Origin: an uncultured Paracoccaceae bacterium
Lineage (GTDB): Bacteria; Pseudomonadota; Alphaproteobacteria; Rhodobacterales; Rhodobacteraceae
Length of the DNA stretch: 64,000 nucleotides
Assembly (NCBI GenBank): GCA_947494675.1
Contig: CANLVP010000003.1
Span: forward strand, 62,001-126,000
Direction: 5' to 3'
Positions 29,939 to 42,720 of this stretch are shown here, in pieces. The position numbers and the translations under genes are program-made. Each line of letters starts with the position of its first letter. Position 1 is the first letter of the stretch. The notes beneath the pieces were generated by a model. It ran no database searches. It was not told where the DNA came from and was given only the letters and a program-made list of their open reading frames with translations.

Positions 29939-29967
29939 TCGGATTGGGCTTAACGCCTGTTAGGACT

Positions 29968-30043
29968 TCGGTGCGCATGGGTTGTGCATCACCTGTGCAT
30001 GGTTTTCATACAGGTTCTGCATCGCCGTTTTCGACCGTTCGGT
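29968..30043 (-). repeat. Copy A of an ACCG(NN)CGGT plus 11-bp iteron-like element
   Basis: Minus strand: ACCGAACGGT...ATGCAGAACCT GTATGAAAACC ATGCACAGGTG ATGCACAACCC ATGCGCACCGA. Confidence 0.75.
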
Positions 30044-30051
30044 GGGGGGGG

Positions 30052-30128
30052 TGGTACCGCCTCCCCGGCTTGAACGGGGGACCCCTGGTTCCACAAACCA
30101 GTGCTCTAACCAACTGAGCTAAGGCGGC
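30052..30128 (-). tRNA. tRNA-His (anticodon GTG), CCA encoded
   Basis: GCCGCCTTAGCTCAGTTGGTTAGAGCACTGGTTTGTGGAACCAGGGGTCCCCCGTTCAAGCCGGGGAGGCGGTACCA folds as a cloverleaf; anticodon loop TTGTGGA. Confidence 0.96.
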
Positions 30129-40573: not shown

Positions 40574-41658
40574 GCCGGGCGCCAGCGATGGCAAATGTCG
40601 CCACCAACTGTGGTGACGTCGATCAGATCAAAGCGCGGTGCATCTGACAGTTGGTCAAGGTCGAGGCTGCCAATGGATGGCGTGCCGTCCGCGCCAATCA
40701 ACGCGCTGCCGCCGAAGACCACCAGTTCGTCGACCAAGCGCGCTTTTAGGAGCGATGCGGCCCACGCGCCGCCGCCTTCGCAAAAGACACGTGTGATCCC
40801 GCGTTTTCCCAGCATTTGCAGGACGTTATCCGGGTTCAGCCCGTCAGCACCAGCGCTGCATTCGAGCAGCTCAGCCGCTGTTCCTGACCAATCCGCCGTC
40901 CCGGCCCCTGCCCCATGGCACAGCCACAAGGGTTGCTGATCCGCCGTCTTGGCCAAACGGCTATCCGTCGGCAGGTTAAGCGATCCGCTGACTACAACGC
41001 GCACCGGTTGTGGGACGCGCCCCAGATCGCGCACATCGAGCATCGGATCATCCGAGCGCGCTGTGCCGCCGCCGATCATCACCGCATCATGTCGCGACCG
41101 CATTGCGTGCACCATACGCCGTGCGGCAGGGCCGGTGATCCAACGGCTGTCGCCTGTACGGGTCGCGATCCGACCATCCAGCGTTGTTGCGAGTTTGAGC
41201 GTCAGCCAAGGGCGTCCCTTGGTCACGCGATTGAAGAATCCTGCGTGATCCAGATTTGCCTGTGCCTGACCCTCGCCAATTTCAACTGTGATTCCAGCGG
41301 CTTGCAGCATCGCGATGCCTTTGCCAGCGACGCGGCTGTCTGGGTCGGACGTCGCGATAACACAGCGTGAAATCTGCGCGGCGATCAGCGCCTCCGCGCA
41401 GGGCGGGGTTTTTCCGTGATGGGCGCAGGGCTCCAACGTGACATAGGCCGTGGCACCTTTGGCGTGCGCGCCTGCCTGCGTCAGGGCCTGCGTTTCGGCA
41501 TGGGGTCTGCCGCCATCAGCGGTCCAGCCACGCCCGACGATTTGACCGTCTTTGACAATAACGCAGCCCACGGCAGGATTGGGCCAGACGCGCCCCATGC
41601 CACGCCGGCCCAGCGAGAGGGCCAGCGCCATATACCGCGCATCATCGGCGGCGGTCAT
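40570..41658 (-). CDS. ribD: Bifunctional deaminase/reductase of riboflavin synthesis
   Basis: [74 protein letters not shown]. Confidence 0.96.
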
Positions 41659-42122
41659 GTGTCGGATTTGGTATCCGGGCGCAGTTCATCCATGAACTTT
41701 TCAAAGTCGTCGGCGGCTTGGAAGTTCATGTAAACACTGGCAAATCTGACGTAAGCCACGGTGTCGATCCGCGCGAGGCTTTCCATCACGATCTCACCAA
41801 TTGTCTTGGATGGGATGTCGGTTTCGCCCATGCTTTCCAACCGGCGCACAATGCCAGAGATCATCTGGTCAATCCGCTCTGGCTCTACGGGACGTTTCTG
41901 CATCGAAATCCGGATCGAGCGTTCGAGCTTATCACGGTCGAAATCTTCGCGCCGTCCGTTGGACTTAATCACCACCAGATCGCGCAATTGCACCCGTTCG
42001 TAAGTTGTAAATCGTCCGCCACAGGCGGGACAAAAACGCCGCCGCCGAATTGCAACATGATCTTCGGCTGGGCGTGAATCTTTGACTTGTGTGTCAACGT
42101 TTCCGCAAAAGGGGCAACGCAT
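41655..42122 (-). CDS. nrdR: Transcriptional repressor NrdR
   Basis: [49 protein letters not shown]. Confidence 0.97.
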
Positions 42123-42164
42123 ATCCTGACCTCTTATTGTCTGCCTCTTGGGTGTGTCCCCAAG

Positions 42165-42173
42165 TTATCCACA
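42165..42173 (+). promoter_or_regulatory. Consensus DnaA box TTATCCACA upstream of nrdR
   Basis: Exact TTATCCACA in the nrdR 5' intergenic region. Confidence 0.6.
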
Positions 42174-42232
42174 GTTACTATAGGACAGCCGCTAGGATTT
42201 GGGTAGTCCGGATTTCAAACCGCTGCATCTGG

Positions 42233-42303
42233 ACCGTTCGGTCGTTTCAAGGTGATGCAGAAACCATACAGAACCTATGCACGGATGATGCAGAACCTGT
42301 ATG
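42233..42303 (+). repeat. Copy B of an ACCG(NN)CGGT plus 11-bp iteron-like element
   Basis: ACCGTTCGGT...ATGCAGAAACC ATACAGAACCT ATGCACGGATG ATGCAGAACCT GTATG. Confidence 0.75.
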
Positions 42304-42312
42304 CCCTCAAGT

Positions 42313-42720
42313 CTAAACGAAATTAACCACCACGCGGCGGGTGTGGGGGGCATTGCGGTGCTCAAAAACATAGATGCCCTGCCATGTGCCCAGCATCATT
42401 CGCCCATCCTGCACCGGGATCGAGAGCGAGGTGGGCAGCATCGCCGCCTTGATATGGGCGGGCATATCATCGGGGCCTTCGTAGGTGTGGGTGAGGTAGG
42501 ACATCGACGGATCCGTCGTCGGCGGGACGAGGCGCGCAAAGAAGTTTTGCAGATCGGTCTGCACTTCGGGATCGGCGTTTTCCTGGATCAACAGACTGGC
42601 AGAGGTGTGCTGGATCAACAAGGTCAGCAGCCCGTCACCCTGCCCTTTGATCAGGGCCGCGACGTCTGCTGTGATCTCATAAAGGCCGGGGCCGCGTGTT
42701 GGGAGGGACACAATCTGCAT
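42313..42720 (-). CDS. YjbQ family (UPF0047) protein
   Basis: LLTLLIQHTSASLLIQENADPEVQTDLQNFFARLVP; MMLGTWQGIYVFEHRNAPHTRRVVV. Confidence 0.92.
   Translation of the reverse strand: MQIVSLPTRGPGLYEITADVAALIKGQGDGLLTLLIQHTSASLLIQENADPEVQTDLQNFFARLVPPTTDPSMSYLTHTYEGPDDMPAHIKAAMLPTSLSIPVQDGRMMLGTWQGIYVFEHRNAPHTRRVVVNFV

Follow-up and report, generated by a model that had tools for sequence, protein, structure and literature searches.

In this study, we show that a short array of head-to-tail 11-bp repeats in the genome of an uncultured Paracoccaceae bacterium is a polar, chromosome-scale element: its copies are evenly spaced, the gaps between them depend on their orientation, and the strand on which the array is read is G-rich. 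Our preferred reading, to which we give a probability of roughly 40%, is that the array is a directional site for one-way, fork-type DNA synthesis downstream of it; we infer that a protein would bind the array, that synthesis would proceed from there and that the array would cause the strand asymmetry. A first-pass annotation of the window, the 64,000-nucleotide stretch analyzed here, had described two copies (A and B) and argued from them for a dispersed functional element. This view is supported by the present work, and the polarity, the spacing rule and the link to GC skew go beyond what that annotation foresaw.

Copy B consists of four units on the plus strand (42255..42298), namely, ATGCAGAAACC (42255-42265), ATACAGAACCT (42266-42276), ATGCACGGATG (42277-42287), and ATGCAGAACCT (42288-42298), followed by GTATG (42299-42303); all parts described earlier are present, and the 11-bp register is unbroken. 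Twelve base pairs before the array lies the left-end palindrome ACCGTTCGGT (42233..42242, plus strand), an inconstant feature of the ACCGNNCGGT type, and a terminal module that is degenerate compared with the 53-copy consensus, GTATGCCCTCAAGTCTAAACGAAATTAACC (42299..42328, plus strand), overlaps the 3′ end of the yjbQ-type open reading frame on the right side (42313..42720, minus strand). On the other side, the nrdR reading frame (41655..42122, minus strand; start motif MRCPFC in homologous loci) starts 133 bp from the array. Copy A is found on the minus strand, with its four-unit array at 29979..30022, its terminal module ATGCGCACCGAAGTCCTAACAGGCGTTAAG at 29949..29978, the palindrome ACCGAACGGT to its left at 30034..30043, and an adjoining tRNA-His gene, also on the minus strand, at 30052-30128. 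The 17-mer GATGCAGAACCTGTATG said to be common to both copies occurs exactly twice in the window (30007-30023, minus strand; 42287-42303, plus strand) and is not a matter of local chance, as none of 100 dinucleotide shuffles gave two matches, even with three mismatches. With a 97-position profile, copy A scores 80.5 bits (C3:91948-92041, minus strand) and copy B 53.5 bits (C3:104249-104320, plus strand; E=4e-14) against a best score of 84.9 in the same genome, which places copy B among the more degenerate copies. Upstream of nrdR (window 42150-42200), a perfect DnaA-box-like TTATCCACA(G) is followed by ACTATAGG and TTTGGGTAG; this block, probably the nrdR promoter, is kept in the majority of the family genomes examined and is much better conserved than the neighboring array.

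In the window's own assembly (G000; 3.92 Mb in 9 contigs), the two-unit pattern ATGCACAACCYATGCACAACC with up to three mismatches has 86 matches compared to 0 for a reversed control pattern, the 97-position profile finds 67 sites at E<1e-5, and a three-unit score applied to 800 kb of contiguous DNA recovered all 15 known arrays and no others. The loci can be aligned without gaps as one element (59 loci, 53-copy consensus), about 100 bp long and present once per ∼60 kb, which usually begins with the A-rich GAAAACGGC, continues with four head-to-tail 11-bp units and ends with ATGCGCATSAAAGTCTTAA-N6-GTTAACC. The unit consensus is ATGCASAACCN (ATGCAGAACCn, then ATGCACAACCC), and four units are the rule without being invariant. 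The order of inverted repeat and then array, proposed as part of the architecture, holds for copies A and B and not as a constant part, with ACCGNNCGGT exact at the left end in 10 of 59 loci, at the right end of others, and the right end itself inconstant. A scan in fixed register found no covarying stem, the Rfam search matched only the tRNA, and a short hairpin precedes the array in 36% of the copies compared to 17% in the background. Separately, the G/C palindrome CGGGGTnAACCCCG(GCCTAC) recurs beside several arrays, just to the right of the array in loci L058, L063, and L051, and looks like a separate dispersed repeat or terminator.

The element is an old one with a broad distribution in the family. 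Each of the six genomes of the genus carries 42 to 74 sites, which is the opposite of the absence from the rest of the genome and from sister species that would have spoken against a dispersed element, and diverged arrays were seen in at least 35 of the 396 genera of the family that were sampled (397 genomes), a lower bound given that scoring was limited to ten candidates per genome and used strict filters. Among genomes of other genera, G324 has 56 sites and G374 has 26 at E<1e-5; their arrays have three units ATGCACAANNN and then ATGCATAYCGC or ATGCATACGCA, and the unit consensus differs by species. The place of copy B is itself conserved: the yjbQ-nrdR gap holds an array with rewritten units in congeners G001, G002, and G004, in G003 and G005, where 9 kb have been inserted, the array is still beside yjbQ, and in G324 it is at the same yjbQ-nrdR place despite the different genus. 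More generally, about 6 to 8 of the 30 best sites in G324 and G374 adjoin orthologues of genes flanking sites in G000. That sites are kept between genera while their units are rewritten makes a currently mobile repeat less plausible and speaks for constraint on both pattern and place. We therefore regard spread by transposition, as a MITE- or REP-like repeat, as highly improbable, even though the copies are dispersed and intergenic, carry ACCGNNCGGT at one or the other end and have species-specific consensus versions: the palindrome is inconstant where a MITE would have constant terminal inverted repeats, the spacing is more even than random, copy B occupies the same intergenic site across species and genera, and all 53 copies compared are diverged, with none nearly identical. 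Searches of plasmid and phage collections gave no real match to the array. One viral contig (IMG/VR; L331:9380-9560) has TTATGCACAAC three times at 11-bp pitch among TGTGGATAA boxes; this array is made of true DnaA boxes and was rejected as a member of the element.

Nearly all array sites are intergenic; their distance to stop codons is very short, and that to start codons is somewhat longer. The first-pass annotation had pointed to convergent 3′ ends as the context, with the array running toward the 3′ end of an opposing gene; the latter is true of copies A and B and not in general, and the former does not generalize either, because neighboring genes face the element in all combinations, with no clear bias. 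The forty genes whose 5′ end faces the element have unrelated core functions and include an EF-Tu-type GTPase, a lipoamide-dehydrogenase-type enzyme, the acetolactate synthase small subunit, dUTPase, and topoisomerase IV/gyrase A. An operator of a transcription factor regulon or a bidirectional terminator would fit intergenic sites that often touch stop codons, and the C-rich units could serve as Rho sites; yet the unbiased gene orientations and the absence of any coherent regulon among the forty neighbors leave very little credence for either. Specific candidates fared no better. Although the alphaproteobacterial LexA (GTTC-N7-GTTC) and CtrA (TTAA-N7-TTAA) boxes share the 11-bp direct-repeat geometry, the LexA dyad is present in only 4 of 54 arrays, and the flanking TTAA pair is found at N6 in 26 arrays and at N7 in none, so that both were rejected. 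In one locus (L043), the array lies between two divergent small genes, one of them encoding a BrnA-type antitoxin.

The spacing of the arrays is more even than that of random points, with coefficients of variation of the gaps of 0.49 on contig C1 (P<5e-5) and 0.44 on contig C2 (P=2e-4) of G000, 0.49 in G374 (P=1.5e-4), and 0.61 and 0.56 on contigs C1 and C2 of G254 (P=0.014 and 0.006, respectively); gaps on C1 of G005 are likewise more regular than random, and no two of the 56 sites in G324 are closer than 19.6 kb (P<5e-5). Contig C3 of G000 is an exception because of a single 233-kb desert (409-642 kb), the right part of which is low in G+C. The region C3:505-645 kb (L159-L165) comprises ∼135 kb of array-free DNA with a G+C content of mostly 0.50 to 0.56 compared to 0.60 and near-zero skew, and this low-G+C block is probably acquired DNA. 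Gap length depends on orientation: pooled over five genomes, the median gap is 28 kb between divergent arrays (58 gaps), 69 kb between tandem arrays (124 gaps), and 86 kb between convergent arrays (56 gaps). Each of the five genomes has shorter divergent than convergent gaps (pooled P=1.4e-12), and a test by shuffling of strands within contigs gave P=2e-4. It is as if each array owned a territory of ∼43 kb downstream and ∼14 kb upstream, and the orientation-dependent gaps show, from the sequence alone, that the element is polar at a scale of tens of kilobases. Replichore by itself is a weakly significant predictor of array orientation in G374 (P=0.04) and not a significant one in G324.

Sites that are close when divergent and far apart when convergent follow the orientation grammar of CTCF loop anchors, and in mammalian replication N-domains, with their "factory roof" skew, the skew likewise jumps at sites and declines between them. 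In contrast to both, the present element belongs to a bacterial chromosome and works at about one-tenth of the scale or less, and we know of no bacterial proteins homologous to those of the CTCF or N-domain systems. The resemblance nevertheless brings up the idea that a DNA translocase or loop extruder (SMC/Mks or FtsK-like) is loaded or halted at the array in a polar manner, with a chromosome organized in one-way loops and an asymmetry that is a by-product of traffic. The even spacing, the minimum distance, the close divergent and distant convergent pairs, and the intergenic positions beside unrelated core genes would all be expected of such a site, but translocation alone leaves a leading-strand-type mutation signature at silent sites unexplained, and we consider this explanation unlikely.

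That signature comes from the strand skew around the arrays. The array strand, on which ATGCACAACC is read, is locally the richer in G at 50 of 56 sites in G000, 15 of 15 in G324, 15 of 15 in G374, 10 of 10 in G254, and 9 of 10 in G005, and the array itself is C-rich on this G-rich strand. Contiguous skew profiles of G000 have a sawtooth shape with up-steps at the arrays. From the 9 kb upstream to the 9 kb downstream, the mean skew rises from +0.008 to +0.085 (19 of 20 sites positive, t=7.7) and in a second set of ten sites from 0.000 to +0.074 (10 of 10 positive), compared to a mean step of 0.001 at random positions oriented by local skew. The step begins 2 to 2.5 kb upstream of the array, and the skew then declines until it is back near zero 30 kb downstream. 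In 400 kb of G000, each of the six largest up-steps is located 0.1 to 3.7 kb from an array. The shift falls mainly on third codon positions and is seen in co-directional genes (−0.061 to +0.108) as well as in genes of the opposite direction (+0.017 to +0.240), with G exceeding C and T exceeding A together, the usual leading-strand signature; it thus looks like a mutational strand asymmetry instead of an effect of gene direction. This polar silent-site skew is clear in G000 and has weaker support in G374, where the skew rises from 0.082 to 0.123 (16 of 20 positive, t=4.4), and in G324, where an up-step occurs at six of seven arrays. Arrays of an Amaricoccus sp. MAG likewise have a G-rich array strand (0.065 upstream compared to 0.133 downstream).

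Several of these data count against fork-type synthesis at the arrays: (i) the step in G374 is half that in G000 and superimposed on an ordinary two-replichore skew; (ii) the largest steps in G324 lie elsewhere than at the arrays; (iii) array score and step size are weakly related (rho 0.29, P=0.12), with a mean step of 0.042 for five low-scoring arrays compared to 0.108 for 25 high-scoring ones; and (iv) the step at copy B is small (−0.031 to +0.007), next to a clear one at copy A (0.040 to 0.109). It could also be argued that arrays merely need a leading-strand orientation and that old inversions moved arrays and skew jointly, with the arrays starting nothing. Most G374 arrays do follow the replichores, and the array strand agrees with the local skew everywhere; inversions, however, predict a symmetric decay, whereas the skew found here is one-sided, extending 2 kb upstream and 30 kb downstream, and they do not account for gap lengths that depend on orientation, which makes this account very unlikely. 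Among the k-mers behind the skew in G000 and G374, no single guiding octamer is common to both genomes; G/T is broadly in excess, with the addition of NGAGN in G000 and of GACG/GGCGCTGG in G374. In the 9 kb downstream of arrays, GAGC counts are 1102 versus 447 in G000, and in G374 those of GACG are 1379 versus 576 and those of GGCGCTGG 69 versus 5. Such oligomer asymmetries beyond base skew could possibly represent context-dependent mutation or guiding motifs.

Like DnaA-box and iteron arrays (low-affinity arrays of oriC, iterons of plasmid oriV), the element has an 11-bp head-to-tail pitch beside A/T-rich DNA and a strand-skew switch at the site, and the array core ATGCACA agrees with the DnaA box TTATNCACA at 7 of 9 positions; unlike them, it is present in ∼67 copies per chromosome with fast-evolving units. 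As the TT that defines the DnaA box is absent from all 88 ATNCACA units, in which CC, CG, and CT prevail at that place, we do not file the element as a DnaA array. Noc (NBS), SlmA (SBS), and MatP (matS) also have tens of dispersed sites per chromosome and no regulon, but theirs are short palindromes and the present ones polar direct-repeat arrays. Nucleoid occlusion of the Noc or SlmA type was rejected on account of these direct repeats and of an array site at C2:521849, which is only 3.8 kb from the likely dif at C2:518065, indicating that the terminus is not avoided. The sequence of this dif-like site is CGTATAATCAGTATTATGTAAT; a second one in G000, CGCATAATTTGCATTATGTAAA, is found at C6:11590, on a 24-kb contig and 2.4 kb from an array; contig C6 may be a fragment of the terminus or a replicon with its own dif. 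KOPS and Chi share with the arrays an orientation that correlates with strand skew; in contrast to the arrays, which are ∼100 bp long, recur every 60 kb and have a one-sided skew territory, they are short octamers whose copies number in the hundreds to thousands. Our literature search found no paper on Chi in alphaproteobacteria that explains the arrays and none on the array sequence or on multi-start skew in this family.

All observations would fit a process that runs in one direction, sets in a short way upstream of the array and gives the array strand a leading-like character downstream. In such a process, a protein would bind the 11-bp head-to-tail units, whose pitch puts every unit on the same face of the helix, and from the protein-array complex a strand-asymmetric DNA transaction would travel downstream (array 5′ to 3′) for ∼30 to 45 kb, leaving behind a base composition like that produced by a replication fork whose leading strand is the array strand. 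The ∼67 directional, putative binding sites would thereby split the chromosome into one-way territories. The likeliest and most economical form of this transaction would be one-way, fork-type synthesis that starts or restarts at the array. One example would be recombination-dependent synthesis from a processed end, in which ∼2 kb of the array strand would be made single-stranded upstream before strand invasion and synthesis would then proceed downstream; the 2-kb skew shoulder upstream of the arrays would fit an array strand made single-stranded by end processing. Under this reading, the array would cause the asymmetry as opposed to being placed where the asymmetry starts. Against it stands that, to our knowledge, sixty-odd starts of DNA synthesis are without precedent in a bacterium. 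The pattern itself, a replication-start-like change of strand composition at dispersed signposts, is one that we know of in no bacterium.

A one-way skew decay over ∼30 kb might also reflect a directional start of DNA packaging or transfer, at a gene transfer agent pac site or a chromosomal oriT-like site, with processive export in decaying steps. In phages, rings of the small terminase probably attach to repeated boxes at pac sites, and the gene transfer agent marker PF13547 is present in all 13 array-bearing genomes tested. However, it is also present in 14 of 16 genomes without detected arrays, and packaging offers no clear path to silent-site skew. In addition, according to PMC6854486, TerS, the small terminase of RcGTA, has no domain for sequence-specific DNA binding, and no start sites are known for this agent, so that we judge packaging or transfer to be quite unlikely.

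The textbook bacterial chromosome has a single origin and two replichores, and GC skew is interpreted through that model. Here, a conserved and recognizable polar sequence predicts where the local strand skew changes. Returning to fork-type synthesis, we tentatively propose, as an idea that may well prove wrong, that bacteria of this family start or restart one-way synthesis at dozens of iteron-like arrays, in tracts of 30 to 45 kb that give rise to a factory-roof skew, besides replication from oriC. Skew-based origin calls in this family could mislead, and the cause of strand asymmetry, together with the existence of dispersed polar start sites or organizers in bacteria, becomes directly testable.
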